Assembly: GCA_020740485.1 (NCBI GenBank)
Contig: DYMN01000006.1
Location: 1-64,000 of the forward strand
Direction of reading: 5' to 3'
DNA: 64,000 nt
From: Polaribacter sp.
GTDB taxonomy: Bacteria > Bacteroidota > Bacteroidia > Flavobacteriales > Flavobacteriaceae
Each line of letters begins with the position of its first letter. The stretch's first letter is position 1. The translations under genes and the position numbers were made by a program. Below are positions 9,842-51,138 of the stretch, piece after piece. Below the pieces are notes generated by a model. That model ran no database searches, was not told the origin of the DNA, and saw nothing but the letters and a program-made list of their open reading frames with translations.

Positions 9842-10126
9842 TTAGAAAGAGTTTAGTTTAAAATACAGAATCACTAAGGTGATAAAAATTACTCCCATTA
9901 GCACGCCACGCGCTTTATAGTCTTCTTTTCGTTTGATATACACAAAAAACAACAACAAATTGGGAATAGCCCCCAAAGAAAGAACAATACTTTGCAAATG
10001 CCCTTCTATCATCATTTTCCATGAAGTTTCAAACCCGTCCGGTGTGGCGAATTCCAAATAGATATAACTTCCGGCGATGGTTGCCAGTATGCTGAGTATA
10101 AATCCTATGGCTATTTTTTGGTACAT
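9842..10126 (-). CDS. Small three-helix membrane protein, paralogue A
   Basis: The function is not recognised. The protein has 94 residues with three predicted membrane helices (about 4-25, 43-65 and 72-92) separated by the conserved segments TPDGFETSWKMMIEGHLQS and KRKEDYKARG. Two near-identical paralogues occur at 12143 and 13472. The start is set at the ATG giving MYQKIAIGF, which aligns with the other two copies; the track start eight codons upstream has no counterpart. It follows the terminator of the upstream barrel gene and precedes lpxB. Confidence 0.7.
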   Translation of the reverse strand: MYQKIAIGFILSILATIAGSYIYLEFATPDGFETSWKMMIEGHLQSIVLSLGAIPNLLLFFVYIKRKEDYKARGVLMGVIFITLVILYFKLNSF

Positions 10127-10162
10127 ATAAACTAAAATTAACAAGTACAAATCTAAATAAAA

Positions 10163-10190
10163 AAAGGTTGCTTAATTAAAAACAACCTTT
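10163..10190 (-). terminator. Intrinsic terminator of the barrel gene at 10217
   Basis: The stem AAAGGTTG...CAACCTTT is followed by a U run on the minus strand, 27 bases past the stop codon of the barrel gene. Confidence 0.7.
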
Positions 10191-10216
10191 AAACTTATAA
10201 TTTGAAAAGTATTATA

Positions 10217-11017
10217 CTATTTTCCAAAAGAATAACGAATACCTACATTAAATCCTAAAGATGAATAAGGAAGGATTTTAGTCAATCGATGATTTTCAGG
10301 ACTTGTATTATTAAGTTTATCAACATAAATGATTTCTCTTTCATCCAACGGAATGTCATCAATTGTACGTTCTATAACAATTCCATCGGGATTTTTAGAT
10401 AAAGAATTATATTCTGTCAGTGTAGCTTTATCTTTTTTTACATTGATTCCTAAATAATCTAATTCAAAGTATAAACCCATATTATGATTGAATCTATATT
10501 CATAACCCAAAGCCCCTCTATATCCAAGAGGCATTTTACCTTTTACTTCATAAACGTATAAGATATCTAAAGTATATAATCCTACTTGATGATGCTCAGT
10601 TTTTTCTTCTGTCATTTTCCCTCCCACTTTTGTTGCGAATCCAAATTTAACATACAAACCGTTGTCCGATTTGTAGATTAATGTGGGCGCTAAACCAATA
10701 AATGTTGTTTTTGCATTTATTTTTTCAGAGCTTTCCTCACTTACACTTGCTTCAATTAATTGTTCACTTCCCATCAAGTAGGTAAACCCTAATTCAACCC
10801 CTAAATTATCGTTTAAAAAATAACCAAGATTAAGTTTTCCGTTTACTCCGGTTCCATAAGTTCCATAAATATTTTTTGCAGATGTGGGGAATGTTTTTTC
10901 AATCCCTAAAACCCTTTTTGGCATTCCTATGGAATAACCGGCTCCAAGAGAAGCGTAAAATTGGGCAAATGTGGTTGCAGACACTAGCATTAATGATAAT
11001 AAAAATAATTTTTTCAT
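10217..11017 (-). CDS. Outer-membrane beta-barrel protein (OMP4 of the array)
   Basis: The 266-residue protein has a signal peptide (MKKLFLLSLMLVSATTFAQ) followed by alternating amphipathic strands, for example YASLGAGYSIGMP, GKLNLGYFLNDNLGVELGFTYLMG and SLGFNVGIRYSFGK at the end, with the terminal aromatic pattern of OmpA/OmpW-size barrels. It is a clear paralogue of the next gene (11061): the signal peptide, the strand GTYGTGVNGKLNLGYFLNDN and the C-terminus are nearly identical, while the extracellular-loop regions differ. The two genes are 43 bases apart and probably cotranscribed. Ligand and function are unknown. Confidence 0.8.
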   Translation of the reverse strand: MKKLFLLSLMLVSATTFAQFYASLGAGYSIGMPKRVLGIEKTFPTSAKNIYGTYGTGVNGKLNLGYFLNDNLGVELGFTYLMGSEQLIEASVSEESSEKINAKTTFIGLAPTLIYKSDNGLYVKFGFATKVGGKMTEEKTEHHQVGLYTLDILYVYEVKGKMPLGYRGALGYEYRFNHNMGLYFELDYLGINVKKDKATLTEYNSLSKNPDGIVIERTIDDIPLDEREIIYVDKLNNTSPENHRLTKILPYSSLGFNVGIRYSFGK

Positions 11018-11047
11018 TTTAATTAATTTAAATTTTGATTACTCTCA

Positions 11048-11067
11048 AGTTTTTCAGCTATCACTCC
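11048..11067 (-). promoter_or_regulatory. Conserved leader element, copy in front of OMP4
   Basis: Read on the minus strand, GGAGTGATAGCTGAAAAACT lies about 31-50 bases upstream of the ATG. The same 20-mer precedes OMP3, OMP2 and OMP1 (11922, 13235, 14528). The stop codon of OMP3 is the TGA inside this element. It is probably part of a shared 5' untranslated leader. Confidence 0.55.
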
Positions 11068-11891
11068 TTTTTTTTAGGAACCTCTATATGTATATTACCA
11101 ATAGTATAACGAATACCAATATTAAATCCAAAAGATGAATAAGGGCGGGTTTCGGTCAAATTATAGCTCCTCCACCAAGATGTTTCATCTGTATAATTCG
11201 AACAATGGCAACCTTCATCCTCAAAGGTACGAATAACAACACCATTCTCTGTTTCCTCGTAAGCAGTTAATGTAGATTTGTCTTTTTTTATACTGACATC
11301 AAGATATTCCATTTCTATGAACAAATTCAAATTGTTACCTACTTCAAATTCATATCCCATAGCACCGGTAAATCCAAGAGGCATTTTACCTTTACTTTCT
11401 AAAGTTCTTTTAGTTATGTATATCCCATTTACCTGTTCGGATCTCTCTGCTACTTTACCCCCTATTTTAGTTGCAAAGCCAAATTTACCATACAAACCAT
11501 TGTCCAATTTGTAAAATAATGTGGGAGCTAAACCAATAGATGTTGCTTTTGCTTTTGTGGTTATTTTTGTTTCACTATTAATAGAAACATATTCATATAT
11601 TCCAATTAATTGTTCACTCCCCATTAAATAGGTAAAACCTAATTCAACTCCTAAATTATCGTTTAAAAAGTAACCCAAGTTGAGTTTCCCGTTTACTCCG
11701 GTTCCATAAGTTCCATAAATGTTATTCTCATGAAATTCATAGTTAACTGTAGAATTAGAACCTTCATCAAGCCCTAAAACGCCATTACCATAAGGCATTC
11801 CCATAGAATAACCGGCTCCAAGAGAAGCGTAAAATTGTGCAAATGTAGTTGCAGAAACTAGCATTAATGATAATAATAAGATTTTTTTCAT
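11061..11891 (-). CDS. Outer-membrane beta-barrel protein (OMP3 of the array)
   Basis: The 276-residue paralogue of the gene at 10217 has signal peptide MKKILLLSLMLVSATTFAQ, conserved strands (GKLNLGYFLNDNLGVELGFTYLMGSEQL, GLAPTLFYKLDNGLYGKFGFATKIGGK) and the C-terminal strand SFGFNIGIRYTIG. It then has a short charged tail, HIEVPKKKE, encoded by the start of the following leader repeat. One loop carries two cysteines (GCHCSNY-like region), absent from the neighbour. Its leader is shared with the other array barrels. Function unknown. Confidence 0.8.
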   Translation of the reverse strand: MKKILLLSLMLVSATTFAQFYASLGAGYSMGMPYGNGVLGLDEGSNSTVNYEFHENNIYGTYGTGVNGKLNLGYFLNDNLGVELGFTYLMGSEQLIGIYEYVSINSETKITTKAKATSIGLAPTLFYKLDNGLYGKFGFATKIGGKVAERSEQVNGIYITKRTLESKGKMPLGFTGAMGYEFEVGNNLNLFIEMEYLDVSIKKDKSTLTAYEETENGVVIRTFEDEGCHCSNYTDETSWWRSYNLTETRPYSSFGFNIGIRYTIGNIHIEVPKKKE

Positions 11892-12142
11892 TTTAATTAA
11901 TTTAAATTTTGCTTACTCTTAAGTTTTTCAGCTATCACTCCTAACTCTTTTATAAATTTTCAGGATTACTCCTTTTATGTCTATTAGATTCCATTCTACT
12001 AAAACGGCATCGTGAAAATACTAAATAATTTTTTAATTTAAGTTTTTTTAACGCTGCAAAACTTTCAACCCTGATCTTGACAGATGTTCTTTTTCAGTGC
12101 ATCACTTTAGATTACTCAGTGCACCACATTAACCAATCTCAA
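11892..12142 (-). repeat. Intergenic module shared with 13205-13471 (leader of OMP3, 3' flank of small paralogue B)
   Basis: The 251 bases between OMP3 and the small gene at 12143 match 13205-13471 almost end to end, including tcagctatcactcct, tagattccattctactaaaacgg, tttttttaacgct and caatctcaatcaaaaaat. On the minus strand it would hold the OMP3 promoter and leader. I see no gene in it. Confidence 0.7.
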
Positions 12143-12421
12143 TCAAAAAATCCTAAAATACAGAATCACTAAGGCGATTAAAATTACTCCCATTAACACG
12201 CCACGCGCTTTATAGTCTTCTTTTCGTTTGATAAACACAAAAAATAACAACAAATTGGGAATAGCCCCCAACGAAAGGACAAGTCTTTGCAAATGCCCTT
12301 CTATCATCATCTTCCACGAAGATTCAAACCCGTTCGGAGTGCCCAATCCCAAATAAAGATAGCTACCAACTAAGGTAGCTAAAATACTAAATAAAAATCC
12401 TATGGCTGTTTTTGGGTACAT
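12143..12421 (-). CDS. Small three-helix membrane protein, paralogue B
   Basis: The 92-residue protein differs from paralogues A and C mainly at residues 2-32 and in helix 3 (MYPKTAIGFLFSILATLVGSYLYLG). The central TSWKMMIEGHLQ-like and GAIPNLLLFFVFIKRKEDYKARGVLMGV segments are conserved. Three membrane helices are expected. It sits directly after the terminator of OMP2 and upstream of the shared intergenic module. No family is recognised. Confidence 0.7.
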   Translation of the reverse strand: MYPKTAIGFLFSILATLVGSYLYLGLGTPNGFESSWKMMIEGHLQRLVLSLGAIPNLLLFFVFIKRKEDYKARGVLMGVILIALVILYFRIF

Positions 12422-12467
12422 ATTACAATATATAATTAAAGCAAAGATGAAAAAAAAAGGGAATAAA

Positions 12468-12492
12468 AAAAGCCACCCTATAGGTGGCTTTT
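12468..12492 (-). terminator. Intrinsic terminator of OMP2
   Basis: The perfect stem AAAAGCCACC-ctata-GGTGGCTTTT lies 17 bases past the stop of the barrel gene, with a U run on the minus strand. Confidence 0.8.
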
Positions 12493-12508
12493 TATAAATT
12501 AATGAATA

Positions 12509-13204
12509 TTACATAAATTTATATCCTACTCCTAATTGGAAGAATTGATTTTTTACTTGATAACTATCAGTTCCTATTTTGCCGTCAGATCCACTTACTT
12601 CTCCTTCTTCTGCTTTTTGGATGTCAGAAAGACCTAAATTATACCCTAAAGAAAACATTAGTCCATTTTCTAATTTATAACCAAGACCCATTTTTAAACC
12701 GAAATCAGTAGAATTATAATCTTCTTTCACGTCTTTATTGTCAAAACTAGCAACTAAATAGTCGTTTCCAGCTAAAGGGTGGTTTATATATACGTTACCA
12801 TCTTGTTTTGCAGATAATAAAAATCCAACATAAGGACCTACTTCAATACTCAAACTTTCAGTAACATAATATTTAGCTAATACAGGAATTTGTAAATAAG
12901 CCAAATTACCCTTTACTTCATTTTTTGTTTCAACTTCATTGTACTTTACATATTCCCCTTTTCCTTGAAAACCGGATCCAAAGTAATCCAATCCTGCTTG
13001 CAAAGCAAAAGCATCGCTCATTTCCATTTCAGCAAACACTCCTATATTCGGGCGAATAGCCGCTTTGAAAAGTGCATTGTAATCTTTATCTGTAGTCATA
13101 GTACCACCATAATTCACACCTACTTTAGCTCCAAAGGATATATCTTGAGCTAAGATAAAACTAGAAGATAAAACCGCTAAGGTCAATAAAAATAATTTTT
13201 TCAT
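12509..13204 (-). CDS. Outer-membrane beta-barrel protein, porin-like (OMP2 of the array)
   Basis: The 231-residue protein has signal peptide MKKLFLLTLAVLSSSFILAQ and the typical PF13568-type (OMP_b-brl_2) order: SFGAKVGVNYGG, ALQAGLDYFGSGFQGKG, LAYLQIPVLAKYYVTESLSIEVGPYVGFLLSAK, DFGLKMGLGYKLENGLMFSLGYNLGLSDI, and the closing strand QLGVGYKFM. Its body is unlike OMP3 and OMP4 although leader and downstream small gene are shared. Structural role and ligand are unknown. Confidence 0.85.
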   Translation of the reverse strand: MKKLFLLTLAVLSSSFILAQDISFGAKVGVNYGGTMTTDKDYNALFKAAIRPNIGVFAEMEMSDAFALQAGLDYFGSGFQGKGEYVKYNEVETKNEVKGNLAYLQIPVLAKYYVTESLSIEVGPYVGFLLSAKQDGNVYINHPLAGNDYLVASFDNKDVKEDYNSTDFGLKMGLGYKLENGLMFSLGYNLGLSDIQKAEEGEVSGSDGKIGTDSYQVKNQFFQLGVGYKFM

Positions 13205-13471
13205 TTTAATTAAGTTAAATTTTGCTTACTCTTAAGTTTTTCAGCTATCACTCCTTACTCTTTTTTTAAGGATTTTCAGGGTTACTCCTTTTTCGTTTAA
13301 TAGATTCCATTCTACTAAAACGGTTGCGTAAAAATAATAAAAAATTTTAACTTAGTCATTTCGTTGATGGTTTTTTTAACGCTATAAAACTTTCAACCCT
13401 AAAACTTCACAGAGGTACTTTCTCATTGCATCACTTTAGCTTACTCAGTGCACTACATTGACCAATCTCAA
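13205..13471 (-). repeat. Intergenic module shared with 11892-12142 (leader of OMP2, 3' flank of small paralogue C)
   Basis: This is the second copy of the conserved intergenic block. It starts with the barrel leader (ttaagtttttcagctatcactcctt), continues through tagattccattctactaaaacgg and ends caatctcaatcaaaaaattc. Divergence is mostly single substitutions and short indels. No gene is seen in it. Confidence 0.7.
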
Positions 13472-13750
13472 TCAAAAAATTCTAAAATACAGAATCACTA
13501 ATGCGATAAAAATTACTCCCATCAACACCCCACGCGCTTTATAGTCTTCTTTTCGTTTGATAAACACAAAAAACAACAACAAATTGGGAATAGCACCCAA
13601 TGAAAGAACAATACTTTGTAAATGCCCTTCTATCATCATTTTCCATGAAGTTTCAAACCCGTCCGGTGTGGCAAATTCCAAATAGATATAACTTCCGGCG
13701 ATGGTGGCTAAAATACTGAATAAAAAACCTATGGCTATTTTTTGGTACAT
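13472..13750 (-). CDS. Small three-helix membrane protein, paralogue C
   Basis: The 92-residue protein is almost identical to paralogue A (MYQKIAIGF...LEFATPDGFETSWKMMIEGHLQSIVLSLGAIPNLLLFFV) and has the C-terminus LYFRIF of paralogue B. The copies therefore look like recent duplication or gene conversion products. Three membrane helices and a short basic cytosolic loop (KRKEDYKARG) are expected. It lies between the OMP1 terminator and the shared intergenic module. Unknown function. Confidence 0.7.
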   Translation of the reverse strand: MYQKIAIGFLFSILATIAGSYIYLEFATPDGFETSWKMMIEGHLQSIVLSLGAIPNLLLFFVFIKRKEDYKARGVLMGVIFIALVILYFRIF

Positions 13751-13786
13751 GTTCTAAACGATTAATTCCATGTAAAGATAATAAAA

Positions 13787-13812
13787 AAAAGCTGTCCAAA
13801 AGGACAGCTTTT
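13787..13812 (-). terminator. Intrinsic terminator of OMP1
   Basis: The perfect stem AAAAGCTGTCC-aaaa-GGACAGCTTTT lies 29 bases past the OMP1 stop codon, with a U run on the minus strand. Confidence 0.8.
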
Positions 13813-13840
13813 ATGTTTTAGTAAAAAAAGTTGTTCAAAA

Positions 13841-14497
13841 TTAGAAAGCATATCCTAATTTCAAACCACCAATCATACCAGGAATTATTTCGAAAATTTT
13901 AGCACCATCTACTTCAGTTGTTGTTAAACCAGTACCGGATAATTTACTTTTACCATCCACTCCTGAGAATAAACCTAAACCAAGTTCAGCTCCTAAATAT
14001 ACTTTTTTAGCAAAATAGTAATCAGCACCTAAAGATACTCTTACACCAAACATTGAATTACTTTCTTCATAGTTCAAAACGCTAGCAGGAGAAGAATTTG
14101 AGTCAGTTACATCATGTTTTCCACCTGTTTTTTTGAATAGGAAATCACCGGCTAAAAATGGATCAAGACGGTCAGTGCCTTCAAAATGTTTTTCATACCC
14201 TAATCCAATTGTGAATGCAGATTCAGAATCAATTGTTTCTACTTTGCTAACAGTTTCACTTTCTTTAGCATTGTAAATAAGTACCATAGCACGAACAGCA
14301 GATTTGTCAGAATTGAAATATCTCAATTTTACAACAGCACCAACACCTTGGCCAGCATCATGTGGAGTAACAACAGAATTACTAATACCTCCGGTTAATC
14401 CAAAATCAGTAGCAAAATCACCTTTCACAGCTTTGTACTGCGCGTTAATAGAACTAAAAATTGCAATTGCAACAAATGTTAATAAAATTTTTTTTTT
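13841..14497 (-). CDS. Outer-membrane beta-barrel protein without a standard start codon (OMP1 of the array)
   Basis: The track start at 14428 is a GTG lying after the signal peptide. Upstream in frame the sequence reads KKILLTFVAIAIFSSINAQYKAVKGDF, a complete signal peptide. At the place where the three sister barrels have AAA-ATG-AAA-AAA this gene has an unbroken run of 13 A (minus strand), so the ATG is replaced by AAA. The nearest non-standard start is an ATT four codons upstream. The mature part has barrel strands (DFGLTGG, FTIGLGYEKHF, GVRVSLGADYYFAKKVYLGAELGLGLFSG, GGLKLGYAF). It may be silent, use ATT, or reflect an error in the A-run. Confidence 0.7.
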   Translation of the reverse strand, partial: KKKILLTFVAIAIFSSINAQYKAVKGDFATDFGLTGGISNSVVTPHDAGQGVGAVVKLRYFNSDKSAVRAMVLIYNAKESETVSKVETIDSESAFTIGLGYEKHFEGTDRLDPFLAGDFLFKKTGGKHDVTDSNSSPASVLNYEESNSMFGVRVSLGADYYFAKKVYLGAELGLGLFSGVDGKSKLSGTGLTTTEVDGAKIFEIIPGMIGGLKLGYAF

Positions 14498-14640
14498 TTT
14501 AATTAAGTTAAATTTTGCTTACTCTTAAGTTTTTCAGCTATCACTCCTTACTCTTTTTGAGGATTTTCAGGGTTAATCCATTTTAATTTATATGAACTAA
14601 GATGTAACAATTTGTTAGAGGTTGCGTAAAAATACAAATT
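14498..14640 (-). promoter_or_regulatory. Leader region of OMP1, same family as other array leaders
   Basis: It contains the conserved leader TTAAGTTAAATTTTGCTTACTCTTAAGTTTTTCAGC on the plus strand, followed by tatcactccttactctttttgaggattttcagggtt, closely matching 13205-13300. Beyond about 14580 it diverges. It lies between OMP1 and surE and contains no gene. Confidence 0.5.
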
Positions 14641-14653
14641 TTATAAAATAAAG

Positions 14654-15430
14654 CTACAACTCCCAATTATTCAAATCATCAATAAAATGATGGGCGGTTA
14701 GGTCAAATTGTACCGGTACAATAGAAATATAATTATTTGCCAACGCCCATTCATCAGTATCTTCGCCTTTGTCCATATTTACAAATTTTCCGGTGAGCCA
14801 ATAGTATTCTTTACCATGCGGATTGACACGTTTATCAAATTCTTCTTCCCAATAAGCGCGCGCTTGCCTACAGATTTTTATGCCTTTAAACGTTTTTTCT
14901 TTTGATTTCGGGAAATTGACATTTAATACTACGCCACTGGGTAATCCGTTTTTCAATACCCCTAAAACAATATTTTTGATGTATGCTTTTAAATGTTCAA
15001 ATTCGGCATTGTATGAGTAATCCAAAAGTGAAAAGCCCACCGCAGGCACGCCTTCTACACCTGCTTCTACCGCCGCACTCATCGTTCCGGAATAAATGAC
15101 ATTGATGGATGAATTAGAACCGTGATTAATGCCGGAAACACATATATCCGGTTTTTTATTGAGGAGTTCATTGACCGCTAATTTCACACAGTCTGCCGGA
15201 GTGCCACTGCACGAATATTCTATTTGAGGACCGTTATCTATGTTCACGGGTTCTACAAAAAGCGTATTGTTTACCGTGATAGCGTGACCCATGCCACTTT
15301 GCGGGCTATCCGGTGCCACTACTACTACTTCGCCAATTTCATTCATAGCATCTATGAGATTTCTGATGCCCGGCGCTGTGATACCGTCGTCATTGGTCAC
15401 TAATATTAAGGGTTTTTTTGGTTGTATCAT
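14654..15430 (-). CDS. surE: 5'/3'-nucleotidase SurE
   Basis: SurE is a metal-dependent nucleoside monophosphate phosphatase of the stationary-phase survival family. The N-terminal metal-binding motif ILVTNDDGITAPGI (residues 9-22), the SGTPADCVKLA segment and SGINHGSNSSINVIYSGTMSAA are all present, with C-terminal extension YWLTGKFVNMDKGEDTDEWALANNYISIVPVQ. Length 258, normal. It is divergent from prc and followed by the barrel array. In related flavobacteria surE and lpxB are often neighbours (recalled, not checked); here about 4.9 kb separate them. Confidence 0.95.
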   Translation of the reverse strand: MIQPKKPLILVTNDDGITAPGIRNLIDAMNEIGEVVVVAPDSPQSGMGHAITVNNTLFVEPVNIDNGPQIEYSCSGTPADCVKLAVNELLNKKPDICVSGINHGSNSSINVIYSGTMSAAVEAGVEGVPAVGFSLLDYSYNAEFEHLKAYIKNIVLGVLKNGLPSGVVLNVNFPKSKEKTFKGIKICRQARAYWEEEFDKRVNPHGKEYYWLTGKFVNMDKGEDTDEWALANNYISIVPVQFDLTAHHFIDDLNNWEL

Positions 15431-30665: not shown

Positions 30666-33600
30666 TTAATTTCCCATCATTTTCATCATTTCAAATGCTT
30701 TTCGCACTGTTTTTATTTGGTCAAATCGGATGAGCAATCGCAAACCTTTCGGAGTTGTTTTCTCACTTATTTTGCACCATTGTGGGTTTTTTTGGGCAAA
30801 TTGCATAATGTTTACAAATGTATCGGTCTGATAAAAACCAGATTGGGGGTCTGCAATAAAATAACCGAACAACGTGTCTTTTTTTAGAACAATTTTCTCA
30901 ATACCCAAAGAAACTGCCAGCCATTTCATCCGTACGCTGACCAACAAATCTTCCACTTCCGTTGGAAAAGGGCCAAAACGGTCTATCAAGTTTTTTTCAA
31001 AAACAGCTAATTCGGCTTCATTTTTTAGTTCGCCCATTGCGGTGTAAAGATTCATCCTTTCCGTAATGATATTGATGTAACTATCGGGAATCATCAATTC
31101 TAAATCGGTTTCTATTTGTACCTCATTGACAAATGGTTTCGCAATATGATTACCGGCAAATAGTTCTTTGTACTCGTTTTCTTTCAATTCTTCAATGGCT
31201 TCGTTCAATATTTTTTGATAGGTTTCAAAGCCAATATCGTTAATAAATCCACTTTGTTCAGCACCTAACAAATCGCCGGCACCTCGTATTTCCAAATCTT
31301 TCATAGCAATATTAAAACCGCTTCCCAAGTCGGAAAAAACCTGAATGGCTTCTACCCTTTTGCGCCCTTCGGAAGAGATGGTATCCATCGGCGGGGTAAT
31401 GAGATAGCAAAAAGCTTTTTTGTTGCTTCTCCCCACCCGTCCACGCATTTGATGTAAATCGGCTAAACCGAAACTCTGTGCATTATTGATAAAAATAGTA
31501 TTGGCATTAGGTACATCCAATCCGCTTTCTATAATGGTGGTGGCAACCAAAATATCAAATTCATTATTGATAAATCCTAACATCAACTCTTCTAATTTTT
31601 GTCCATCCATTTGTCCATGTCCGATTCCGATTTTAGCATCGGGTAACAAACGTTGGAGCATTCCGGCAATTTCTTTGATATTTTCAATCCGATTGTTGAT
31701 AAAAAAAACCTGCCCACCCCTTGAAATTTCATAGTGCACCGCATCGCGAATGGTTTCTTCATTCATACGGATTACTTGGGTTTCAATAGGATGCCTATTG
31801 GGTGGCGGTGTATTGATGATAGACAAATCGCGCGCAGCCATTAGTGAAAACTGCAAGGTGCGCGGAATGGGAGTTGCCGTCAGCGTCAAAGTATCTACAT
31901 TGGCGCGCAACGTCTTGAGTTTGTCTTTGATATTGACCCCAAATTTTTGTTCTTCATCAATAATGAGCAATCCCAAATTTTTGAATTTCACTTTGTCTTG
32001 CACCAATTGGTGTGTACCGATAAGGATGTCAATTTTTCCTTCTTCCAATGATTTGAGAATCTCCGTTCGTTGTTTTGCCGTTCGGAACCGATTGAGGTAG
32101 TCTACGCGTATAGGAAAATCTTTCAAACGCTCTCTAAAACTTCGATAATGTTGAAAAGCCAAAATAGTAGTTGGCACTAAAACTGCCACTTGTTTTCCGT
32201 TGTCCACCGCTTTGAATGCAGCTCGCATAGCAACTTCGGTCTTCCCAAATCCTACATCGCCACAAACCAATCGATCCATGGTTTGTTCGCTTTCCATGTC
32301 AGTTTTTACATCTTGTGTAGATTTAAGTTGGTCGGGGGTGTCTTCATACATAAAACTCGCTTCCAATTCGGTTTGCAAATAGGAATCCGGTGCATATTGA
32401 AAACCTTTTTGCATTTTGCGTTTGGCATAGAGTTTAATCAAGTCGAAAGCTATTTCCTTGACCCGTTTTTTAGTCTTTTGTTTTAGATTTTTCCAAGCAT
32501 CTGAACCCAATTTATACAACTTGGGCACAGCACCGTCTTTGGAATTGTATTTGGTGATTTTGTGTAGTGAATGTATGCTGATGTATAGAATATCACGGTC
32601 GCCGTAAATCAATTTGATAGCTTCTTGCGGACGACCTTCTACCTCTATTTTTTGTAACCCGGCAAATTTTCCTATCCCGTGGTCAATGTGTGTAACATAA
32701 TCCCCGATTTCCAAATTTGACAATTCCTTTAAACTCACCGCTTGTTTTTTTTGATAACCTGTTTTGAGTCGGAATTTGTGATAGCGCCCGAAAATTTGGT
32801 GGTCTGTATAGCAAGCCAATTTCAGTTCATCGTCCACAAAGCCTTGATAAATTGGCACCACCAAAGTTTTATATTGTACCTCAGGACCTATGTCTTCAAA
32901 AATAGTGTGAAAACGCCTGGCTTGTTTTTCATTATCACAAAAGAGGTAATTGTCAAAACCACGGGCTGTATTCTCTTGAAAATTAGCAATCAACAATTCA
33001 AATTGGTTGTTAAAAGCCGGCTGTGGTAGCGTATTCCACAATAATTTTGCATTTTCCAATTGAATTTTTACTACTTGGCGATTTCCCAAATCCTGTTGAA
33101 AATAAGTCGAATTGACAAATAAATTCTCAGGTTCAAGGTGATTTAATTCTGATTTTAAATGTTGAAACGCTTCGGTGGCTTTTTCGAATAAAGTGTCAAT
33201 TTTGTGGTAAACTAACTTTTCATCTTTGAGCCACACTAGGGTTTTACTGCCAATATACTGCAAAAATGATTGACGACGTTCTTGAATGAGTTTATCCGCC
33301 ACATTGGGCACAATTTGCATACGAGACACTTTTTCGGTAGAGAGCTGAGTTTCTATGTCAAACAGGCGAATACTTTCCACCTCATTTCCAAAAAATTCAA
33401 TCCTATATGGAGCATCGTGGCTGAAAGAAAACACATCAATAATACCACCACGCACGGCAAATTCACCCGGTTCGGATACAAAATCTACCTTGTTGAAACG
33501 GTATTCAAACAATGTTTCGTTAATAAAGTCCAACGAGAGTTTGTCTCCCACATGCACTTTAAGCGTATTGGATTCTAATTCAGCCTTGGTAACCACTTGT

Positions 33601-34016
33601 TCAAACAGCGCATCGGCATAGGTGACAATCAGGGCAGGTTTTCGTTGCGAATTGAGCCGATTAAGCACTTCTGTTCGCAACAAAATATTGATATTGTCCG
33701 TTTCTTCCACTTGATACGGACGACGGTAAGACCCCGGAAAAAACATAACCCTTTCTTTGTCAATAAGTTGCTCAATATCATTGAAATGATACGCCGCTTC
33801 TTCTTTATCGAGAAATACAACGAGAAAGGGATGATCTACTTGTTTAAATACAGAAACGATAAAAAAAGACAAAGCAGATCCACTCAAATGTGGTACTGAC
33901 ATTTGATTTTCATGACCATTTATTTGCTGAACGAGTTGAAGCGTGCGTGTTGCTTGGTCGTATTTTTGAGCAATATTGGAAAGACTAAAAATAAGCTTAT
34001 ATTTGAGTGCAAAAAT
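30666..34016 (-). CDS. mfd: Transcription-repair coupling factor
   Basis: Mfd removes stalled RNA polymerase and recruits UvrA. The protein has a UvrB-like N-terminal domain (GGIIDVFSFSHDAPYRIEFFGNEVESIR), the RNA-polymerase interaction domain (LEIGDYVTHIDHGIGKFAGL), RecG-like translocase motifs (MDRLVCGDVGFGKTEVAMRAAFKA, IIDEEQKFGV, LTATPIPRTL, IESGLDVPNANTI, HQMRGRVGRS) and the TRCF tail. The first ATG is at 33902, but the frame is open upstream with Mfd-like sequence (SLSNIAQKYDQATRTLQLVQQING) and no ATG/GTG/TTG before a stop. I extend to an ATT at 34016, giving 1116 residues; 1078 from the ATG. Confidence 0.85.
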   Translation of the reverse strand: MFALKYKLIFSLSNIAQKYDQATRTLQLVQQINGHENQMSVPHLSGSALSFFIVSVFKQVDHPFLVVFLDKEEAAYHFNDIEQLIDKERVMFFPGSYRRPYQVEETDNINILLRTEVLNRLNSQRKPALIVTYADALFEQVVTKAELESNTLKVHVGDKLSLDFINETLFEYRFNKVDFVSEPGEFAVRGGIIDVFSFSHDAPYRIEFFGNEVESIRLFDIETQLSTEKVSRMQIVPNVADKLIQERRQSFLQYIGSKTLVWLKDEKLVYHKIDTLFEKATEAFQHLKSELNHLEPENLFVNSTYFQQDLGNRQVVKIQLENAKLLWNTLPQPAFNNQFELLIANFQENTARGFDNYLFCDNEKQARRFHTIFEDIGPEVQYKTLVVPIYQGFVDDELKLACYTDHQIFGRYHKFRLKTGYQKKQAVSLKELSNLEIGDYVTHIDHGIGKFAGLQKIEVEGRPQEAIKLIYGDRDILYISIHSLHKITKYNSKDGAVPKLYKLGSDAWKNLKQKTKKRVKEIAFDLIKLYAKRKMQKGFQYAPDSYLQTELEASFMYEDTPDQLKSTQDVKTDMESEQTMDRLVCGDVGFGKTEVAMRAAFKAVDNGKQVAVLVPTTILAFQHYRSFRERLKDFPIRVDYLNRFRTAKQRTEILKSLEEGKIDILIGTHQLVQDKVKFKNLGLLIIDEEQKFGVNIKDKLKTLRANVDTLTLTATPIPRTLQFSLMAARDLSIINTPPPNRHPIETQVIRMNEETIRDAVHYEISRGGQVFFINNRIENIKEIAGMLQRLLPDAKIGIGHGQMDGQKLEELMLGFINNEFDILVATTIIESGLDVPNANTIFINNAQSFGLADLHQMRGRVGRSNKKAFCYLITPPMDTISSEGRKRVEAIQVFSDLGSGFNIAMKDLEIRGAGDLLGAEQSGFINDIGFETYQKILNEAIEELKENEYKELFAGNHIAKPFVNEVQIETDLELMIPDSYINIITERMNLYTAMGELKNEAELAVFEKNLIDRFGPFPTEVEDLLVSVRMKWLAVSLGIEKIVLKKDTLFGYFIADPQSGFYQTDTFVNIMQFAQKNPQWCKISEKTTPKGLRLLIRFDQIKTVRKAFEMMKMMGN

Positions 34017-34151
34017 AATTTTTTTTAGTTATAATTTTTATTTGTTTAGAGAACTTAATAGAAACGTAACCTATATTACATTTAAATTTTATGAAAGTCC
34101 AAAATATTTTCATATCATTGCATCTTGTAAAGTCTAATCCCAAGATTAAAA

Positions 34152-50506: not shown

Positions 50507-51106
50507 TTAAGGTTTAGATTCTTGAATTAATCGTGCTCCTGTATTTTTAAATAGGAATGAATTTTCTATCAATTGTTGATCTTTTTCATAGAGGTAATAT
50601 GTATCTGCAGCGCTAATAAACATAATACTATACACATTGGGATGAAGATAATAATAGTGAATTTTGAAAAATTGTTTTTTCGCTATATCTGAATTAAATG
50701 TGTTCGTATCATAATACAATAAATAATGATTTTCACTTTTTTTCAATAGTTTTTGATAATGATCGCTTTCTGTATTTATTTTGATTTTATTGTTGATGAA
50801 TTCTTCAAAATTTCCAACTATGCTGTCCTTATAAATGCAAAAATAAGTACTAGAATAAATCCCTGCCTTAGTTTTATCTCCAAAAGTCATTGATATATTA
50901 TCATTTGTTTCTTTAAAAGGTGCAACATAAACACTAGGATCATCAACTACTAATGGATCATCAATTATACGCCAATTTTTGGGATATTTAAAATTGAAAT
51001 CTTGGTTTTCGAAAATTTTAACTTAGGTTTGAAGTTCAGCATCCTTAACCGACCTTGGTGAAGTGCATGAAACCATTAGTAAGATTATAGGAATAAACTT
51101 GTGCAT
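50507..51106 (-). pseudogene. Lipoprotein gene interrupted by one in-frame stop codon
   Basis: The track shows only the last 127 codons (50507-50890). In the same frame the sequence extends upstream to ATG 51106, encoding lipoprotein signal MHKFIPIILLMVSCTSPRS, with a single TAA at 51023-51025 (codon 28). After the stop the frame continues VKIFENQDFNFKYPKNWRIIDDPLVVDDPSVYVAPF, which resembles a PsbP/MOG1-like start (FxFKYPxNW), through to the track ORF. There is no frameshift: reading through the stop gives a coherent 199-residue secreted protein. Function unknown. Sequencing error or recoding are alternatives. Confidence 0.75.
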
Positions 51107-51138
51107 ATAATTGAGATTAACAAAACAAATATAATAAA

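Follow-up and report, generated by a model that had tools for sequence, protein, structure and literature searches.

Apparent loss of the start codon from one barrel gene of a redundant outer-membrane protein array in Polaribacter sp.

The window, a 64,000-nucleotide stretch of a Polaribacter sp. contig, carries on its minus strand an array (9842-15430) at the surE-lpxB locus in which four outer-membrane barrel genes (OMP1 to OMP4) and three copies of a small-protein gene lie behind near-identical leaders. The features of OMP1 and its neighbours are listed below in the direction of transcription, with the basis for each in parentheses.

14626-14634, minus: promoter-like -7 box TATTTTTAC, common to OMP1 and OMP2 (alignment; putative promoter)
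14545-14581, minus: first DUF805b-like leader element of OMP1 (27.4 bits, E 1.5e-4, below the 35.6 cut-off)
14517-14547, minus: second DUF805b-like leader element of OMP1, directly before the start region (alignment; DUF805b likeness by eye)
14501-14503, minus: ATT, the only near-cognate in-frame start ahead of the signal peptide; initiation here would yield MKKKKILLTFVAIAIFSSINA followed by Q after the cut (frame, alignment)
14488-14500, minus: run of 13 A in place of AAAATGAAAAAAA (sequence, run count, alignment)
14495-14497, minus: codon at the ancestral-ATG position, here AAA, 20 nt past the leader GAGTAAG (leader spacing, alignment)
14441-14503, minus: signal peptide, in phase (translation, homologues; predicted cleavage site)
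14426-14428, minus: GTG, the first ordinary start; 195-aa protein lacking the signal peptide (frame translation)
13841-14503, minus: OMP1 frame, outer-membrane beta-barrel (Pfam OMP_b-brl), ending ...LKLGYAF (profile, homologues, predicted structure)
13472-13750, minus: 92-aa membrane protein downstream of OMP1 (frame; paralogues at 12143-12421 and 9842-10150)
12509-13204, minus: OMP2, sister barrel with intact ATG (frame, profile)
11061-11891, minus: OMP3, sister barrel with intact ATG (frame, profile)
10217-11017, minus: OMP4, sister barrel with intact ATG (frame, profile)

The minus-strand letters at the OMP1 start are ...GTAAGCAAAATTTAACTTAATT-AAA-AAA-AAA-AAA-ATT-TTA-TTA-ACA. Read from 14503 downward, the region is ATT-AAA-AAA-AAA-AAA-ATT-TTA-TTA, and the 13 A at 14488-14500 form an uninterrupted run that spans the start site. 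The original prediction, that the ATG of OMP1 has been replaced inside this run, was confirmed: codon 14497-14495 is AAA, while OMP2, OMP3 and OMP4 have ATG at the equivalent place. These three genes and the genes at the same locus in two congeners (G001 and G002) all read AAAATGAAAAAA and align without gaps, placing the change from TG to AA at the ATG itself. Since the OMP3 stretch AAAATGAAAAAAAT and that of OMP1 are equal in length base for base, the change in OMP1 equals TG to AA. The sisters had been described as reading AAA-ATG-AAA-AAA with equal spacing; the gap-free alignment upholds the spacing, but seven A follow the ATG only in OMP3, with six in OMP2 and OMP4. The IKKKKILLTFVAIAIFSSINAQ stretch is in phase with the OMP1 open frame. 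The earliest ATG, GTG or TTG of the frame is GTG 14428, downstream of the signal peptide, and the earliest ATG is at codon index 77.

Slippage on the A-run was considered as a further source of a start and was rejected, as a stop is present in all three frames directly upstream with no ATG, GTG or TTG between. Because these stops precede the run in every frame, slippage, whether in transcription or in replication, cannot turn OMP1 on. A phase-variable gene would have an upstream start codon in some frame that is switched by tract length, and OMP1 has none. Coupling to an upstream GTG mini-frame (GTGATAGCTGAAAAACTT...TAA) was also discarded: G001 and G002, compared by eye, do not keep the position of its stop, and its GTG overlaps its sole possible Shine-Dalgarno sequence.

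The homologues, the spacing from leader to ATG and the congeners agree that the ATG was lost, as originally proposed. About 15 homologues of OMP1 from other Flavobacteriales and Chryseobacterium (about 26-42% identity) all have ATG at the aligned place, with ATG-AAA-AAA as the usual aligned start. Among genes preceded by a DUF805b leader (members over the threshold, from other genomes and the present one), 49 of 50 have ATG after the leader. In these 50 members the ATG is nearly always 17-29 nt past the end of GAGTAGG, and the AAA of OMP1 lies at 20 nt. Thus, three independent lines of comparison (homologues, DUF805b leader spacing and sister genes) indicate that ATG is ancestral at OMP1. The relatives start at the aligned codon, and no replacement ordinary start would give a complete protein, as GTG 14428 follows the signal peptide. 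A search of the genus set, genome contigs and viral contigs identified no same-species copy of the OMP1 locus; the nearest relatives among the genome contigs are only 41% and 34% identical.

The claim that the frame and signal peptide are intact also held. The open frame runs from 14518 down to its stop at 13841 (225 codons) with no internal stop or frameshift, the signal peptide is in phase, and the protein keeps the invariant residues of the family as well as the C-terminal Phe. OMP1 scores 29.9 bits against PF13505 (OMP_b-brl), above the curated cut-off of 28.7. The predicted structure is a small barrel of nine strands with moderate model confidence (pLDDT 73.9), and a Foldseek search with this model matched OmpA, Ail and OmpW (E about 1e-6). 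The mature protein had been expected to begin after SINAQ; a cut between INA and Q, leaving Q at the mature N-terminus, is more likely. Since signal peptidase strips the original N-terminus, a mature N-terminal peptide would be evidence of expression without revealing which start codon was used. A protein initiated at GTG 14428 would not be exported, as this codon lies behind the signal peptide. Gene finders would wrongly place the OMP1 start there and lose the signal peptide.

The second leader element of OMP1 is identical in OMP2 and OMP3 and nearly so in OMP4, G001 and G002. Upstream of the start, OMP1 and OMP2 share about 60 identical bases. Matches to DUF805b (Rfam RF02914) in the window score 34.4, 27.4 and 22.8 bits, all under the gathering score of 35.6, the best of them (E 6e-7) being upstream of OMP2. 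The leader elements of OMP1 to OMP3 resemble the DUF805b RNA in matching it and in having the start about 20 nt later, but differ from it in scoring below the gathering threshold and in occurring as tandem pairs. The leaders at 14517-14581, 13224-13290 and 11910-11941 (minus strand) have two overlapping DUF805b-like elements, possibly small pseudoknots; the OMP4 leader retains only the second.

In both congeners (loci L055 and L056) the surE-lpxB interval is a single unit composed of a leader, a barrel and a small membrane protein of about 94 aa. The barrel is OMP2-like in G001 and unrelated in G002. From these single units, the array of four in the window is an amplification. No OMP1-type barrel was found in the congener genomes, which are incomplete. 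OMP1 is an extra copy in a redundant array, and its loss may therefore be tolerated. Loss is tolerated within the family, as an OMP1 homologue in G579 (L061, G579:C1 about 1077700, minus strand) is decayed and carries six stops. The 92-aa protein at 13472-13750 has no Pfam or NCBIfam match. The surE-lpxB units share a leader and a membrane protein of 92-94 aa with an exchangeable barrel between them, and the locus looks like a site where recombination in the common leader drives barrel exchange.

Translation from AUU, expression turned off and a sequence error had been offered as explanations. These were the right alternatives, and expression that is off or very low fits best. A consensus or assembly error, in which the organism has an ATG that was lost from the consensus in an A-rich stretch, is rather unlikely. 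The base change comes from one metagenome-type assembly in 40 contigs and is homopolymer-like. An 802-kb sample of the genome was taken for a survey of starts, frames and homopolymers. Five broken starts or frames were found in it (OMP1, mfd, a TAA-bearing lipoprotein gene, an acpH-like gene and dnaX), three of them in the OMP1 contig. However, two adjacent substitutions are unusual as a short-read error, and A/T runs of 12-15 survive elsewhere without the homopolymer truncation of poor long-read data; counts in the sample fall steeply to length 9, yet the longest run is 15. The first start lies past codon index 22 in only 23 of 557 coding-like frames, most being plain later starts, which argues for a low error rate, and at least 16 other AAAATGAAAAAA contexts in the sample are intact. 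The base accuracy of the assembly is good and the base change is probably real in the organism. The 2.18 Mb genome has five A/T runs of at least 12, of which only 14488-14500 sits on a start. The remaining four (one inside a coding frame, three intergenic) do not lie on a start, and a genome-wide association of A-runs with starts was rejected. A reversible switch, in which recombination between near-identical sister leaders would swap start regions and turn barrels on or off, is highly improbable. It draws on the identical bases upstream of OMP1 and OMP2 and on the different barrels behind the same leader in the congeners, but in the one genome available no second state of the OMP1 start was seen.

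It is unlikely that OMP1 is made in a useful amount from AUU 14503, with the weak start giving a low dose. From this ATT, the frame and a four-lysine signal peptide are intact. AUU is the start codon of infC in E. coli; in the present genome, infC carries ATT at codon index 3, and no ATG, GTG or TTG comes ahead of index 45, which already lies within the IF3 domain. Likewise, mfd (window 30669-34028, minus strand) has no ordinary start until codon index 42, its homology extends to ATT 33992, and the adjoining TTT aligns with TTG, GTG or ATG in about 25 of 29 relatives. Because infC and probably mfd also lack ordinary starts, an AUU start of OMP1 is more credible than it looks. An AUU start has been documented for Staphylococcus aureus cvfC1 (PMC13009471). 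OMP1 resembles these AUU-started genes in having an in-frame AUU where initiation is expected, and the infC of its own genome appears to be one of them. In contrast, the AUU of OMP1 is a leftover upstream of the lost ATG, with no Shine-Dalgarno sequence and with an unfavourable T at -3. The sister leaders already have its equivalent two codons ahead of their ATG, so it was not gained for OMP1 initiation; moreover, ATT is common in AT-rich DNA. The AUU cases of S. aureus carry extended Shine-Dalgarno motifs, which are not known in Bacteroidota. In Flavobacterium johnsoniae, initiation is favoured by A at the first start-codon position, -3 and -6 (PMC6847099). A broader use of AUU in this lineage beyond infC, with mfd and OMP1 both translated from AUU without Shine-Dalgarno sequences as a low-dose setting, is quite doubtful.

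A modest balance of probability favours a start-loss that is real and recent, in an array of redundant barrels, with OMP1 either silent or very weakly started at AUU 14503. The ATG would have become AAA in an A-rich start context, either through substitution of two adjacent bases or through deletion of TG together with slippage, and the redundant array of four leader-barrel units would make the loss of one copy bearable. The OMP1 mRNA with its leader is probably still made. Ribosomes would find no ordinary start ahead of the signal peptide, and the product would be absent or very low, coming at most from AUU 14503. Since the frame is intact over 220 codons with invariant positions kept, the loss would be recent; a rough 95% bound on its age, assuming neutrality, is 0.025-0.057 substitutions per site. 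OMP1 is similar to a start-loss pseudogene in a tandem array in its intact frame, lost initiation codon and redundant neighbours, but differs in having no other decay. Against this reading, the frame shows no more damage than that of a working gene, and the length of the A-run holds ATT 14503 in the barrel frame, which is needless for a dead gene. If the change is real, OMP1 is a start-loss that arose in nature, its three sister genes have near-identical flanks, and the set allows a clean test of the amount of translation initiated in Bacteroidota without AUG and without a Shine-Dalgarno sequence. Otherwise, one gene of a redundant array has been lost in the ordinary way.

Several other genes with unusual starts or frames were noted. 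The ATT at codon index 3 of infC (L188, G000:C39 about 22190, minus strand) is its likely start; for mfd, ATT 33992 may serve as an AUU start, or the consensus may be wrong there. At 50510-51110 of the window (minus strand), a lipoprotein signal peptide (MHKFIPIILLMVSCTSPRS...) meets an in-frame TAA, with 171 coding-like codons beyond it; a search of 40 related genomes gave no relative. An apparent shift of one base at an A5 divides an acpH-like gene (L125, G000:C28:169912-170379, plus strand) in two. Programmed slippage is known for dnaX. In the present genome (L133, G000:C26 near 35290, minus strand), the gamma frame of dnaX ends just past an A10 tract (GGTGAAAAAAAAAACTG) and a tau-like tail lies in another frame, possibly reflecting programmed slippage or an indel.
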